This document shows, one piece after another, positions 17,551 through 24,104 of a DNA stretch of 64,000 nucleotides. Numbering within the stretch: the stretch's first letter is position 1; every line of letters begins with the position of its first letter. Location of the stretch: the NCBI RefSeq assembly GCF_004331675.1, contig NZ_SJSN01000007.1, positions 1 through 64,000 on the forward strand, given 5' to 3'. The DNA comes from Pedobacter frigidisoli (lineage in GTDB: Bacteria; Bacteroidota; Bacteroidia; Sphingobacteriales; Sphingobacteriaceae). The position numbers and the translations under genes were made by a program. Under the pieces are notes generated by a model that was not told the origin of the DNA, ran no database searches, and saw only the letters and a list, made by a program, of their open reading frames with translations.

Positions 17551-19851
17551 ATGAAAAATTTTTTACTAATTGCGCTGCTAAGTATGGGCTTAGCATTTGC
17601 TGTTAAGGCTCAAGCCCCCCAACAATTCAACTATCAAGGGGCCGCCCGCAATATTAACGGAACTCCGCTCGCTAACAAAAGTATCTCTCTTAGAATTAGC
17701 ATTCTCGATGGTACTTCTACTGGAACTTCACAATATTCTGAAGTAAGAAGTGTAACTACTAATGCTTATGGTCTTTATGCAATCTCCATTGGAAGTGCAG
17801 GAGCAATTTCATCAACCGGTAGTGTAACGACAGTAACTTGGGCTACAGGTTTAAAATTCGTTAAGGTGGAGGTAGATCCTGATAATGGAAATAACTTCAA
17901 TTTGGCCGGAACCGCTCAACTTTTAAGTGTTCCTTATGCATTGTATGCGGCAAATGGACCAATCGGTCCGAAAGGAGAAACAGGTGCGACGGGTCCGCAA
18001 GGTATTCCCGGAAGTGTTGGGCCTCAAGGTGCAACAGGTACACAAGGACCAATTGGGTTAACTGGTGCAACCGGATTGCAAGGTGCAACTGGCGCTACTG
18101 GAATTCAAGGTTTGCCTGGAGCCATGGGGCCGCAGGGTGCAAAAGGCGATATCGGCGCAACGGGTTTGCAAGGGCCAATTGGAGTCACAGGTGCTATTGG
18201 TCCGCAAGGTGCAAAAGGTGATGTTGGTGTAATTGGTTCAGCAGGAATTCAGGGCATCGCCGGAACTGCCGGAGCAAAAGGTGATAAGGGAGACAAAGGT
18301 GATACAGGTCCTGTGGGCCCATCTACAGGAGTTGCTGGCGGAGATTTAATTGGCAATTACCCTAATCCAACAATTGCAAATTTACAAGGCAAAAGCCTAT
18401 CAGCAGCTGCACCAACCAATAATCAAGTATTGTTATTCGATGGATTGGCATGGAAACCAGTTACACTCGATGTAAGCCAATTGGTTGGGGGAAAAGCTTT
18501 AACCTCAACCGATTTAAGTGTAAGTGCTAATGGCTCAACTGCGTTATTAAAAGATGTTGTTGTCGATATTAATGCAGGTGCAGTTACAACTGTTAAACTT
18601 GCAGATGGATCTGTAACCACAGCAAAATTAGCCGATGCTGCCGTAACATCAATCAAGATAGGTAATAAGGAAATCAAGAATATTAATATAGATGATGCAG
18701 CAGTAAATAGCTTGCAATTGGCAGATGCTGCCGTAACCACACCTAAATTAGCAGATGCTTCTGTAAGCATTGCGAAATTGGTAACTGATGGTACTGGCGA
18801 CGCCAACAAAATTTACGTCACCAATTCAATCACAGGGAAACCAGAATTAATAAGCCGTACATTATTTACCAATGGAAATGCCTGGGCATTAAAAGGCAAT
18901 ACTGGAAATGTAGATCAAAGCAGCAATTTACTGGGCAATACCGATGATATCGCAATCAACTTCATGGTAAATGGGCAAAAGTCTGGCCGACTTGGAAATT
19001 CATCAGAGAATAATGTTTCTTACGGGTATAAAACAGCTACCTCGAATGTTTCAGGTTTTTACAATAGCGCTTTTGGTAGAGAGGCACTTTCCTTAAACAT
19101 TTCTGGATACGAAAATAGTGCCTTTGGATACATGGTTTTACAACGCAGTTTCAGCGGGATTAACAATAGTGGTTTTGGTTCTCAAGCATTGGCCATAAAT
19201 ACCGTAGGCTCAAATAATAGTGCTTTTGGTACACATGCGCTAATGGCTAATGGAACGGCAATTGCAAATACAGGTATTGGTAGTTTGGCCTTAGAAGCAA
19301 ATAATGGCGATAATAATACTGCCCTAGGTTATGCCGCTGGAAGTAAAAATAGTGGAAATGGAAATATTTTCCTCGGAAGTAATGCTGGTAGTACGCTAAC
19401 GAATGTTAGTAATACTTTAACTATTGCCAATAGCAGTACAATTTATCCCTTACTTGCAGGAAGTTTCACAAATAATGGTGGAACGCTAACCATTAATGGA
19501 ACCTTGGCAGCCAATTCAATAGCACAAGCACCGGCAAACGCAAGTACCTTAAATATCAATGGATCAGTATCTGCAAGTATCCTAACTTATACATCGCCTG
19601 CTTCAATAACATTAGATGCCAGTAATTACACTGTTCGAATAAAAAATGCTGGTACTGCGATTACGATCAATCTTCCATTGGCGACTAGCTGCAAGGGTAG
19701 AATCTATGTCATTGTTAAGGCACTATCATCGGGAAATATCACTTTTAATAATGCTATTTCCTTAAATGATGATACTTCTGTAACTACCATGACTGGAGCC
19801 AAAACTTATACCATTCAAAGCGATGGTTCCTCTTGGATCTCTTTAAACTAA
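17551..19851 (+). CDS. Secreted collagen-like protein with NSAFG head repeats
   Basis: 766 residues. A signal peptide ends at VKAQA (about 21). An N-terminal beta domain (to about 130; QFNYQGAARNINGTPLANKS) precedes a collagen-like Gly-X-Y tract at about 136-257 with GPIGPKGETGATGPQG-type triplets. A GGDLIGNYPNPTIANLQGKS motif, pseudo-repeats VTTAKLADAAVT (about 345-420), and YadA-head-like repeats NSAFGREAL, NSGFGSQAL, NSAFGTHAL (about 500-595) follow. The architecture implies a trimeric, elongated surface fibre. It is followed 4 nt later by a gliding-type C-terminal-domain gene and then PorP/SprF, so export by the type IX system is likely but not proven. Confidence 0.85.
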   Translation: MKNFLLIALLSMGLAFAVKAQAPQQFNYQGAARNINGTPLANKSISLRISILDGTSTGTSQYSEVRSVTTNAYGLYAISIGSAGAISSTGSVTTVTWATGLKFVKVEVDPDNGNNFNLAGTAQLLSVPYALYAANGPIGPKGETGATGPQGIPGSVGPQGATGTQGPIGLTGATGLQGATGATGIQGLPGAMGPQGAKGDIGATGLQGPIGVTGAIGPQGAKGDVGVIGSAGIQGIAGTAGAKGDKGDKGDTGPVGPSTGVAGGDLIGNYPNPTIANLQGKSLSAAAPTNNQVLLFDGLAWKPVTLDVSQLVGGKALTSTDLSVSANGSTALLKDVVVDINAGAVTTVKLADGSVTTAKLADAAVTSIKIGNKEIKNINIDDAAVNSLQLADAAVTTPKLADASVSIAKLVTDGTGDANKIYVTNSITGKPELISRTLFTNGNAWALKGNTGNVDQSSNLLGNTDDIAINFMVNGQKSGRLGNSSENNVSYGYKTATSNVSGFYNSAFGREALSLNISGYENSAFGYMVLQRSFSGINNSGFGSQALAINTVGSNNSAFGTHALMANGTAIANTGIGSLALEANNGDNNTALGYAAGSKNSGNGNIFLGSNAGSTLTNVSNTLTIANSSTIYPLLAGSFTNNGGTLTINGTLAANSIAQAPANASTLNINGSVSASILTYTSPASITLDASNYTVRIKNAGTAITINLPLATSCKGRIYVIVKALSSGNITFNNAISLNDDTSVTTMTGAKTYTIQSDGSSWISLN

Positions 19852-19855
19852 GGAT

Positions 19856-20359
19856 ATGAAAAAAACATTTTACTTGTTTCTTTTCTCGCTCCTATTGCTT
19901 TATGGCCTCAAAGTAGAAGCACAAATTTTGCCGTACACTGTCAACTCGGCCAGCGGTAGCGGAAAAATTAATAACCAATTATATGATTTTAGTATAGGAG
20001 AAATGGTCTTGGTGCAAACTTTCCAGACCAATAGTGCAATCCTTACACAAGGCTTCTTACAGCCATTCCTTGTCATTCAAACTGCAGCAAATGTTTCCAT
20101 TGCAAATAATATTTTAACCCCAAATGGTGATGGCAAAAACGATTTTTTTGTTGTAAAAGGAATTGAACAATACCCAACAAATAAACTATCCATTTTCGAT
20201 CGTGGCGGGAGATTGTTGTATTCCACCATCAATTACCAAAATAACTGGGATGGTTATTTTAATGGCAAGCCTTTGATGGAGGATACCTATTATTATTTAT
20301 TGGATTTGGGTAATGATGGATCGGTTAAAGGTTTTATATCAATTTTATATAAAAAATAA
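19856..20359 (+). CDS. Gliding-motility C-terminal (CHU_C, type B sorting) domain protein
   Basis: 167 residues. A signal peptide ends near VEAQI (about 23). The C-terminal half (about 80-167) is the CHU_C domain: ANNILTPNGDGKNDFFVVKGI, LSIFDRGGRLLYST, NNWDGYFNGKPLMEDTYYYLLDL and a Lys-rich end. This domain marks type B cargo of the type IX secretion system. The short N-terminal part has QLYDFSIGEMVLVQTF, seen in small T9SS-associated proteins. It lies between the collagen-like gene (4-nt gap) and PorP/SprF (4-nt gap), so the three form one operon. Confidence 0.88.
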   Translation: MKKTFYLFLFSLLLLYGLKVEAQILPYTVNSASGSGKINNQLYDFSIGEMVLVQTFQTNSAILTQGFLQPFLVIQTAANVSIANNILTPNGDGKNDFFVVKGIEQYPTNKLSIFDRGGRLLYSTINYQNNWDGYFNGKPLMEDTYYYLLDLGNDGSVKGFISILYKK

Positions 20360-20363
20360 CAGC

Positions 20364-21254
20364 GTGAGAAAGAAAAAGTTTTATTTGAGTGGATGGTTGT
20401 TATTCCTGGTTACTTCAGCTTCTGCCCAGCTTAACCCAATGGGAAGCATTTATTTTCAAAATCAGTTTTTGGCAAACCCTGCAATGGCAGGTTTAGAAAA
20501 GGAATTAAATCTAAATGCAGCTTTTAAAGCACAATGGGTTGGGGTAGAGGGCGCTCCTAAAATTCAATACTTAACAGGAGATTACGGATTAGATAACGGA
20601 AAAGTTGGTGTTGGCGCTTTACTTTATAATGAAAGTGCTGGTGCAATTAACAGAATCAGGGCGACTTTTAGTTATGCTTATCACTTGCCTTTAAGTGATG
20701 GATCAAAATTTCTGGATTTTGGTTTGTCAGCAGGTATAATGAACGAATACGTTGATTTGGGTAAAGCCAAGGCCGATTTTAGCGATGATGTAATATCCAG
20801 TTTTAATGAACGTCAATTGTATTTAGATGGTGATTTTGGAGTAGCTTTTCGAACAGAAAAATTAACCTTGCAAGGTACTTTACCAAACCTAAAGCGCTTT
20901 TTTAAGCGTGATGTGTTACGAAACGTTGTAGATAGATCGATTTATTTCTTTGCTGCCGGTTATAAGTTTACCACAGATAAAGTGATCAGCACCATTGAGC
21001 CAAAACTTGTTTTTCGCGGTGTACAAAACTACAATGGTATTTTTGATGCAGGGATCAATCTTCAATTTTTAGACAACAAATTAATGTTTAATGGAATTTA
21101 TCACAGCACGAATAGTTTTACGGGTGGTTTTGGAGCCAATTACAAAAACCAGCTTTCACTTCTTTTTCAATACACTACAAATACCTCTCAAATGCAGAAC
21201 TATAGCAATGGAGAGTTCGAAGTAGGCTTGCGTTATAGCTTTAAAAATCAATAA
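20364..21254 (+). CDS. PorP/SprF family type IX secretion-associated outer-membrane protein
   Basis: 296 residues from GTG at 20364, four bases after the preceding stop; this start gives a signal peptide (VRKKKFYLSGWLLFLVTSASAQ region). An upstream start at 20313 would overlap the previous gene. The N-terminus of the mature protein, LNPMGSIYFQNQFLANPAMAGL, is the PorP/SprF signature, followed by alternating beta strands to a terminal RYSFKNQ. Such proteins anchor or pair with type B type IX cargo at the outer membrane, matching the CHU_C gene just upstream. A shared bidirectional terminator follows. Confidence 0.9.
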   Translation: MRKKKFYLSGWLLFLVTSASAQLNPMGSIYFQNQFLANPAMAGLEKELNLNAAFKAQWVGVEGAPKIQYLTGDYGLDNGKVGVGALLYNESAGAINRIRATFSYAYHLPLSDGSKFLDFGLSAGIMNEYVDLGKAKADFSDDVISSFNERQLYLDGDFGVAFRTEKLTLQGTLPNLKRFFKRDVLRNVVDRSIYFFAAGYKFTTDKVISTIEPKLVFRGVQNYNGIFDAGINLQFLDNKLMFNGIYHSTNSFTGGFGANYKNQLSLLFQYTTNTSQMQNYSNGEFEVGLRYSFKNQ

Positions 21255-22079: not shown

Positions 22080-22087
22080 TACATTTG
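22080..22087 (+). promoter_or_regulatory. -7 promoter element of the prephenate dehydrogenase gene
   Basis: TACATTTG is a perfect TAnnTTTG, ending four bases before the ATG at 22092. Transcription would start at or next to the start codon, giving a leaderless mRNA. No exact -33 TTG was seen. Confidence 0.6.
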
Positions 22088-22091
22088 TTTC

Positions 22092-23348
22092 ATGCAAATA
22101 GGAATTATCGGCTTAGGCGACATGGGCAAATTATACGCACTTTCGTTTGTAAGCGCTGGTTATAAGGTGTGTGGGGCCGATATGCCTTTACGTTTTACAG
22201 ATTTAAAAAATGAGCTCGAACCAAAGGGCATCGAAGTTTTAATCGATGGTCATGAGGTTGCTCGAAAATCTGACTTTATCATTTACTGTGTAGAAGCTGA
22301 GAAAATTGATGAGGTAGTGGCCACTTTCGCTCGCTCTACAAAATATGGAGCAATCGTATCGGGGCAAACTTCAGTTAAACATCCAGAAATTGCAGCTTTC
22401 GAAAAACATCTGCCTGAGGATACCCAAATTGTAACTTGCCACTCTCTCCACGGACCAGCATTTAGTCCGGAGGGGCAGACGCTTGTTGTGGTTCGCCACC
22501 GGGCGACTGATGAGGTTTATGCGAAGGCATTGGAAATTTATAAATCCTTAAAATCAAACATCATCGAGATGGATGATTACAGGGAACATGATCGAATTGT
22601 TGCCGATACACAAGCCGTTACCCACATGGGCTTCGAAAGTATGGGCTCAGCTTGGAAAAATGCAGGGTTTTTCCCTTGGGATAATCCAGCTTATGCAGGC
22701 GGAATTGATAACGTTAAAATTTTAACAACGTTGAGGATTTTTAGTTACAAATCTCACATTTATGCCGGCTTGGCTATTTTGAATCCTTACGCACAAAAGC
22801 AGGTTAAGTATTATGCGCAAGCAGAATCTGAACTATATAAGCTGATGATTTGCGAGAACGAAACGGAGTTTAGAGAAAAGATTTACGCTGCTCGGGATTT
22901 CGTTTTTCATGAGAGTCGTACACTTTTGCTACTTGATGATAACATTATGAAAGAATTTAGCTTATCTGATGCAAACCACAAACAAAAACCAAATTCTCAT
23001 TTAAGTTTATTAAGCATGGTTTATGCCTGGTACAAAATGGGTGTAAACCCTTACGATAATTTGATCTGCCAAACACCTCCATTTAAGTTAAGGTTAGGCA
23101 TTGCCGAATATTTATTTAAAAATGAAGCTATGCTTGAAGAATCGATTCATACGGCACTTTATGATAAATCTATTCGTGGCGATGATTTGGAATTTCACAC
23201 TGCTGTTCATGAATGGGCATCAATAATAGGGTACGGCGATTTGAAAGGATATAAGGAACATTTTGAGGCTGCAAAATCATTTTTTGCAAATCGTTTAAAT
23301 GATGGAAGAGATTTGAGTGCAGAAATGATTAAGCGTTTGGGGAAATAA
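22092..23348 (+). CDS. Prephenate dehydrogenase (NADP+), fungal TYR1 type
   Basis: 418 residues. The Rossmann start is GIIGLGDMGKLYALSF. Motifs recalled from yeast TYR1 occur in the same order along the whole length: DFIIYCVEA, GGQTS-like SGQTSVKHPEI, HSLHGP, ADTQAVTH, GSAW, YAGLAI, LLLLDDNI, PNSHLSLL, NPYDNLIC and DDLEFHTAVHEW. This is much longer than typical bacterial TyrA. It would oxidatively decarboxylate prephenate to 4-hydroxyphenylpyruvate for tyrosine synthesis. No other aromatic-pathway gene adjoins. The next gene (10 nt downstream) is of unknown function. The assignment rests on remembered TYR1 motifs, not an alignment. Confidence 0.82.
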   Translation: MQIGIIGLGDMGKLYALSFVSAGYKVCGADMPLRFTDLKNELEPKGIEVLIDGHEVARKSDFIIYCVEAEKIDEVVATFARSTKYGAIVSGQTSVKHPEIAAFEKHLPEDTQIVTCHSLHGPAFSPEGQTLVVVRHRATDEVYAKALEIYKSLKSNIIEMDDYREHDRIVADTQAVTHMGFESMGSAWKNAGFFPWDNPAYAGGIDNVKILTTLRIFSYKSHIYAGLAILNPYAQKQVKYYAQAESELYKLMICENETEFREKIYAARDFVFHESRTLLLLDDNIMKEFSLSDANHKQKPNSHLSLLSMVYAWYKMGVNPYDNLICQTPPFKLRLGIAEYLFKNEAMLEESIHTALYDKSIRGDDLEFHTAVHEWASIIGYGDLKGYKEHFEAAKSFFANRLNDGRDLSAEMIKRLGK

Positions 23349-23357
23349 ACATTCTAC

Positions 23358-23951
23358 ATGAAAACGATTTTGAATAAACCGGTATTGGTTTTGCAACTTC
23401 AAAAACAATTAAACGATATAAAAGACCTTTGTGGCGAATATGATTTGGGTAACCATCAAATCATCAATTTCATCGCTGAGAAAGTTTTAATCATATTTCA
23501 GAACACCGATCAAACAAAGTCATTGCTTAATCAATTAAAACTAACTCCTGTTTTGATGTTTTGCAGTTCAGAACTTTACGATCCAAAAAGCCTAACTAAT
23601 TTTATTGGACTATTAAAACTAGGTCGTCAGCCTGAAAAGGGGTGGAGCTATTTAGCAAAGCTGGATAATTCTTCATTAACAAAAGTATCTCAAAATAATT
23701 GGTGGCAGAATAAAAAAGTTATTATTGATTCTGATGGTGTTCCGTTCACAAGATCGAAAATAATTAAGTCTTTTGCTGATGATATCTCTCTCAATCTAAA
23801 TACTTCCGGATGGAAATTGAAAGATGCGGATCGAAATAAATTAACCATTAATCCAATACCAGAAACGGTGAGGCAAATCGCATTCGAATTGTTAGAGAGC
23901 TTTAAAAACATTGATCTGAATAAAGAAAGTAAGCTCCATCTTAAGGTGTAA
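23358..23951 (+). CDS. Unknown protein downstream of the TYR1-like gene
   Basis: 197 residues, soluble, no signal peptide. Visible stretches: KDLCGEYDLGNHQIINFIAEKVLIIFQNT, a LKLGRQPEKGWSYLAKLDNSS segment, a WWQNKKVIIDSDGVPFTRSKIIK segment, and a helical C-terminus. I do not recognise a family. It starts 10 nt after the prephenate dehydrogenase gene, so the two are probably co-transcribed. It could be a partner of that enzyme or an unrelated passenger. Confidence 0.6.
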   Translation: MKTILNKPVLVLQLQKQLNDIKDLCGEYDLGNHQIINFIAEKVLIIFQNTDQTKSLLNQLKLTPVLMFCSSELYDPKSLTNFIGLLKLGRQPEKGWSYLAKLDNSSLTKVSQNNWWQNKKVIIDSDGVPFTRSKIIKSFADDISLNLNTSGWKLKDADRNKLTINPIPETVRQIAFELLESFKNIDLNKESKLHLKV

Positions 23952-24091
23952 AATTTACCTGTTATATTGCCGTTTTTTAATTGGTTACTCAACAAATAGA
24001 AGTTATTTCCATTTTACATCTTACATTATCCATATAACATATAGACTTTATTTTATTCAATTAATCGTTCGTTTCCCTAAACTTCGTGACT

Positions 24092-24099
24092 TATATTTG
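24092..24099 (+). promoter_or_regulatory. -7 promoter element of the TSUP gene
   Basis: TATATTTG matches TAnnTTTG and ends five bases before the ATG at 24105, implying a leaderless or near-leaderless transcript. TTCG at 24067-24070 is about 21 nt upstream and could act as a weak -33. Confidence 0.6.
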
Positions 24100-24104
24100 C
24101 CGCT

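Follow-up and report, generated by a model that had tools for sequence, protein, structure and literature searches.

A predicted prephenate dehydrogenase of the yeast TYR1 type in Pedobacter frigidisoli and its relation to conventional TyrA in two Bacteroidota families

In a 64,000-nucleotide stretch of the Pedobacter frigidisoli genome (the window), we identified a gene that very probably encodes the tyrosine-branch dehydrogenase of this bacterium. The protein belongs to the long type represented by yeast TYR1 and takes the place of the compact TyrA; its activity is predicted from homology, fold and distribution. TyrA is a central enzyme of amino acid metabolism. Many genera have the yeast type as their regular TyrA; they belong to two families, the window's own family (f1 in our samples, Sphingobacteriaceae by its named loci) and the family assigned to Emticicia sp. 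BO119 (G545), here called the Emticicia family.

The gene, its fold and its likeness to TYR1

The reading frame is single and intact from ATG to TAA, and many stops interrupt the reverse strand beneath it. Nearly all change among Pedobacter orthologues is synonymous. That dN (0.015–0.067) lies far below dS (1.78, 2.39 or saturated) in seven of seven orthologue pairs indicates a real gene. The nearest matches in the genome collection, which was searched with one sequence as query and so yields close relatives only, were from Pedobacter at 97–98% identity. Family models place the protein only loosely. In Pfam, PDH_N is matched at 27.0 bits (cut-off 26.5), and general dinucleotide-binding families score higher. 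The top NCBIfam match is the prephenate dehydrogenase model PRK08655, at 77.7 bits over residues 5–268, yet this is far under the cut-off of 464 and leaves the C-terminal part unmatched; no TyrA equivalog cut-off of NCBIfam is reached. For comparison, a conventional TyrA (L113:8572-9417) scores 358.4 bits against a cut-off of 295. With compact bacterial TyrA (NF006307 type, approximately 280 aa) the window protein shares the Rossmann and helical TyrA fold, but it scores only 29.2 bits (cut-off 295), has an extra C-terminal domain of approximately 137 aa, and was found without the companion aminotransferase described below.

The likeness to yeast TYR1 appears much closer. All comparisons used a provisional, unverified Saccharomyces cerevisiae TYR1 sequence. 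By BLASTP, 198 of 427 columns (46%) are identical between this provisional sequence and the window protein, the alignment running the full length and taking in the C-terminal domain, although the termini of the window protein are shorter. Six motifs (GIIGLGDMG, HSLHGP, ADTQAVTH, LLLLDD, PNSHLSLL and DDLEF) occur in the protein in this N-to-C order, and motifs are shared with the provisional TYR1 from one end to the other. By contrast, 20 apparent chorismate mutase–TyrA fusions of Bacteroidota, their mutase domain assigned from frame length and offset, were 21–26% identical over the core only. Such T-protein-type fusions share the TyrA core, but they have an N-terminal extension of approximately 100 aa that is absent here and lie on a separate tree branch. 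The initial annotation had read the motifs as those of TYR1 and not of compact TyrA, and had asked whether a conventional tyrA is also present; the first reading is supported by the provisional comparison, and no second, conventional tyrA was detected in the genome, where the window protein is the only PDH_N match. Against 92 distinct relatives, the best 20 matches of the provisional TYR1 were all from Sphingobacteriaceae (45–48%) and the worst eight all from the Emticicia family (38–41%). Fungal TYR1 did not appear among the matches of the PDB or viral-contig searches.

An AlphaFold model of the window protein, with 35 window and locus sequences as input, had a mean pLDDT of 91.9 and a pTM of 0.89. 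Its residues 1–281 matched solved TyrA structures with Z scores of 19.6–23.3; for 4wji the Z score was 23.3 with an rmsd of 3.5 over 274 residues, and for 5whx it was 22.8 with an rmsd of 2.5 over 245. As modelled, the protein has the TyrA superfamily fold, a Rossmann domain followed by the TyrA helical domain (Table 1). By sequence, soybean prephenate dehydrogenase structures were the best solved relatives (E 1.4e-11). The match to soybean PDH1 (5whx, 5t9e) is approximately 20% identical and covers residues 1–257 of the window protein only, and the solved chain has nothing equivalent to the C-terminal domain; PDB sequence searches found no close relative of the yeast type among solved structures. 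His117, which aligns with the histidine of the soybean PDH1 motif HPMFGP, does not vary in any of the 35 alignment rows, nor does His178. Also invariant in the helical TyrA domain are His166, Asp167, Gln174, Arg215 and Lys220. The conserved active-site histidines presumably have the catalytic role known from E. coli and Aquifex TyrA.

Table 1. Positions of the predicted gene, its domains and associated features (window coordinates unless a locus is given)
Feature	Position	Strand	Basis or remark
Gene for a predicted 418-aa prephenate dehydrogenase of the yeast (TYR1-like) type	22092..23348	+	Frame, families, provisional TYR1, fold, selection
Rossmann nucleotide-binding domain, residues 1-160 (GIIGLGDMG = residues 4-12)	22092..22571	+	Alignment, model, structure match
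Helical TyrA domain, residues 161-281	22572..22934	+	Alignment, model; structural match to solved prephenate dehydrogenases
All-helical C-terminal domain, residues 282-418, with PNSHLSLL and DDLEF	22935..23345	+	Model; also in provisional TYR1
197-aa gene of no assigned function, 9 nt past the TyrA stop	23358..23951	+	Probably co-transcribed, from spacing
DapL-like aminotransferase	L113:9425-10600	-	Homologues track conventional TyrA

The C-terminal domain had no Pfam match. We considered whether it is a duplicated TyrA helical domain, a reading that we keep as speculation only. In the PDB its sequence matched nothing except the helical region of a TyrA (E 0.4), and hhalign of residues 282–418 against 161–281 aligned 27 columns with a probability of 8.5 and an E value of 0.0039. 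Shuffle tests gave p ≤ 0.025 in 15 of 32 members (alignments A3 and A4, which hold 32 of the 35 rows, with L129, L131 and L132 left out as near copies). Of these, 14 came from the 15 Sphingobacteriaceae members and one from the 17 of the Emticicia family; the provisional yeast sequence gave p 0.094. Among the Foldseek matches of the full-length model were ketol-acid reductoisomerases, including one titled domain-duplicated, at rmsd 15–20. Predicted alone, the domain was poorly folded (pLDDT 71.1) and had no significant Foldseek or VIA match.

Predicted substrate and cofactor

The enzyme would most likely decarboxylate prephenate oxidatively to 4-hydroxyphenylpyruvate, which an ordinary aminotransferase would then convert to tyrosine. 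The N-terminal Rossmann domain would hold the dinucleotide and the helical domain the prephenate, while the C-terminal helices would probably serve assembly or regulation. The same genome contains a prephenate dehydratase above the Pfam cut-off and, beside it, a DAHP synthase–chorismate mutase frame (NCBIfam matches below cut-off), both within an aroB-pheA-DAHPS/CM-aroA-aroC neighbourhood (other aro names from sequence reading). The yeast-type enzyme would serve the tyrosine branch beside that dehydratase.

Yeast TYR1 is specific for NADP+. NADP dependence of the Pedobacter enzyme, which the initial annotation had proposed to assay, appears disfavoured by residues of the nucleotide-binding domain. 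All 35 rows, the window protein included, have Asp30 (22179-22181); the next residue is hydrophobic (Leu, Val, Met or Ile) in 33 of them, and Pro occupies the position after that, likewise in 33. In the bacterial yeast-type rows the pair after Asp30 is mostly Leu-Pro, whereas the provisional yeast TYR1 has Asp-Arg-Glu. An Asp of this kind is presumed to mean NAD+ in a figure legend of Song et al. (PMC1173090), and its invariance therefore predicts NAD+, not NADP+, as cofactor. For the substrate, a passage in Schenck et al. (PMC5681985) gives an acidic residue at the soybean 222 position as the mark of arogenate enzymes. In each of the 35 rows this position is Phe or Tyr and no acidic residue occurs at residues 215–220, so we predict prephenate as the substrate; the substrate and cofactor rules both derive from clades other than the yeast type. 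We consider it unlikely that the enzyme is instead an arogenate dehydrogenase, or a cyclohexadienyl dehydrogenase of dual specificity, given the non-acidic residues just described. By their profiles, Song et al. nonetheless predict the S. cerevisiae TyrA to be of the arogenate type, and the same article cautions that specificity is uncertain where close characterised relatives are lacking (PMC1173090).

Distribution and the companion aminotransferase

We sampled 395 genomes across the phylum Bacteroidota, 151 from the window's family and 200 from the Emticicia family. In the phylum sample, 76 of 395 genomes had a match at E ≤ 0.001. Strong matches (>630 bits) came from nine of them, all in the window's family, and the other 67 scored 42 bits or less. 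Within the two families the yeast type was found in 81 of 151 genomes (583–956 bits) and in 27 of 200 (447–562 bits), with carriers including Pedobacter, Mucilaginibacter, Daejeonella, Hufsiella, Pararcticibacter and Emticicia. The wording of the initial annotation, a fungal-type enzyme in a bacterium, suggests an oddity, which these counts do not support. It had also named a wide spread of the class in bacteria as speaking against its reading; in our samples the type is indeed common in two families, but not across Bacteroidota. Relatives were found neither in the viral contigs nor in the plasmids searched, and a viral fold search returned only general dinucleotide-binding and other proteins. 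Among the open-licence papers searched, including PMC5681985, PMC1173090, PMC7311316, PMC3846528 and PMC5133447, we found no account of yeast-type TyrA in Bacteroidota.

Conventional TyrA, counted by hand from PDH_N search tables, was found in 46 of 151 genomes of the window's family (97–141 bits) and in 167 of 200 of the Emticicia family (E ≤ 1.3e-22). None of these 351 genomes carried both types; the genomes are related, and the counts are not of independent events. Of 15 named carrier genomes, which partly overlap the sampled ones, none had a conventional TyrA as well. One genus of the window's family (g185) contained both types in different genomes, 14 with the yeast type and four with the conventional one. 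Neither type was found in 24 of 151 and 6 of 200 genomes; some of the 24 are incomplete assemblies, yet four belong to the window's own genus, for which 20 genomes were sampled.

These genomes bear on another source of tyrosine. The P. frigidisoli genome has a frame of approximately 603 aa with an aromatic amino acid hydroxylase domain (Biopterin_H) in two stretches (G000:C34:185654-186457). Tyrosine could then be made mainly from phenylalanine by such a hydroxylase, the TyrA-like protein having another role. A Biopterin_H frame was also found in seven of seven genomes tested among the 24 of the window's family with neither TyrA type, and a hydroxylase route is proposed for Dyella in a passage of PMC7311316. 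However, Biopterin_H was absent from 14 of 31 yeast-type genomes and present in four of six conventional genomes tested. The hydroxylase thus does not track TyrA type, and the exclusion between the two types argues for the same role of both. We regard a main supply from phenylalanine as very improbable. The yeast-type TyrA remains our preferred tyrosine-branch enzyme, although, given the hydroxylase frame, this genome may have a further way of making tyrosine. The genomes of the window's family with neither type might make tyrosine from phenylalanine, or might need tyrosine. For a Pedobacter strain counted with the bacteria capable of making all 20 amino acids, Table 1 of PMC7311316 shows a single gap, DapE.

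The conventional TyrA has a frequent neighbor. In five of six loci inspected, its gene adjoins that of a DapL-like aminotransferase, for which the copy in locus L113 (Table 1) reaches 369.7 bits with its best NCBIfam model (cut-off 507). With the L113 protein as query, we searched 56 of the 351 genomes, hand-chosen to span genera (25 conventional and 31 yeast-type). Strong matches (378–887 bits) were found in 23 of the 25 conventional genomes, the source of the query among them, and in none of the 31 yeast-type genomes, where the best match was 88.6 bits. The two conventional genomes without it belong to a single genus (g174). Judged by coordinates, all of the 23 genomes but one (G580) have the aminotransferase gene no farther than approximately 1 kb from tyrA. 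Prephenate dehydratase was retained in 55 of the same 56 genomes. From this pattern the whole aminotransferase–TyrA unit appears to have been replaced, the yeast type standing in place of both the compact TyrA and its partner.

A role for the partner in tyrosine synthesis rather than in lysine synthesis is suggested by this co-occurrence. A passage of PMC7311316 describes Echvi_0124 of Echinicola as a possible diverged DapL and Echvi_0125 as a prephenate or arogenate dehydrogenase; by its number, Echvi_0124 is next to this TyrA gene. We infer that Echvi_0124 belongs to the same family as the DapL-like aminotransferase, and if so, the co-loss pattern suggests a tyrosine-branch role for it.

Genomic setting and origin

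No aromatic-pathway genes lie beside the TyrA gene in the window, and no such link was seen in the compared loci. It is located upstream of ribosomal protein genes starting with rplC (names from sequence reading). In 45 of 45 Pedobacter-like loci (L002-L046), a homologue of a 203-aa gene on the opposite strand lies upstream and a TauE-like gene downstream, with differing inserts or none between the TyrA and TauE-like genes; distant loci differ. The gene of no assigned function that had been noted after TyrA does exist and is probably co-transcribed with it, but it is not conserved with TyrA. Of the 84 loci examined, only 23 had a homologue, each of them under a Pedobacter title, and the gene is incidental rather than part of a conserved unit. 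Window positions 23349-24104 form a variable spot, of which this gene is one insert. A second variable region is a cassette at 17551-21254 encoding a collagen-like repeat, a gliding-motility C-terminal domain and PorP-like proteins (labels from sequence reading), which occurs at the same spot in some Pedobacter loci and is missing in others. In the Emticicia family, a 182–188-aa gene follows TyrA in 22 of 23 loci listed; sequence reading at four loci suggests an acetyltransferase-like protein, then a phosphotransferase-like membrane protein.

The promoter scan gave nine sites in comparison with 15.9 in shuffles, and seven terminator-like sites in comparison with 3.6. The element TAnnTTTG, which we take to be the Bacteroidota −7 element, occurs at 22080-22087 and 24092-24099, 4 and 5 nt before the TyrA and TauE-like start codons, hinting at very short leaders and at an own promoter for the TauE-like gene. 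We also considered whether the adjacency of pheA and DAHPS/CM is a scar left by a lost tyrA. This was ruled out: three of four conventional loci of the window's family (L157-L159) have the same order though conventional, so tyrA sits elsewhere there. The order pheA-aminotransferase-tyrA was found only in L113 of these four, and no such cluster accompanied either type in the eight loci inspected from the Emticicia family.

In a tree that included 26 rows of conventional or fused TyrA, a branch with support of 100/99 sets the yeast-type group, with its one provisional fungal row, apart from ordinary TyrA. A 27th outgroup row (L086, probably not a TyrA) was misplaced across this branch, its own branch length being 10. 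The trees were built from hand-thinned sets of 47 and 28 of the 92 distinct relatives, and in the latter, the one with these outgroup rows, the outgroup branches are very long. The Emticicia family forms one clade (100/100). The provisional yeast TYR1 has a long branch (2.67), and its attachment among or beside Sphingobacteriaceae is unsupported; Sphingobacteriaceae as one clade was not rejected by the AU test (p 0.382).

Judged by these sequences, a fungus–bacterium kinship of yeast-type TyrA is likely, and transfer may have run in either direction. The likeness could instead go back to an ancient TyrA subfamily that fungi and these bacteria both inherited and other lineages lost, with no transfer between fungi and bacteria. 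Divergence inside Bacteroidota is deep, the window protein being 48–60% identical to Emticicia-family members, and relatives cluster by family; a passage in Schenck et al. describes one clade that unites fungi with certain archaea and bacteria (PMC5681985). On the other hand, 46% full-length identity to the provisional TYR1, C-terminal domain included, seems high for a common ancestor of bacteria and eukaryotes, and 386 of 395 phylum-sample genomes have no strong match. We therefore think descent without transfer rather unlikely. A fuller reading joins several of these points. Fungal TYR1 and the yeast-type TyrA of Bacteroidota would stem from one transfer, most attractively from Bacteroidota to fungi, of a domain-duplicated enzyme whose C-terminal helices mimic the dimerisation domain of a second subunit, as in class II ketol-acid reductoisomerases, and its arrival would have let several lineages drop the aminotransferase–TyrA unit. 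We offer this combination as a doubtful conjecture.

Within the sampled genomes, a yeast-type TyrA that excludes both the usual form and its aminotransferase partner offers a clear-cut example of how an enzyme of a core pathway is replaced. The bacterial homologues can now be used to study a TyrA type that lacks a close solved relative, and the origin of tyrosine synthesis in fungi becomes testable by a proper tree.
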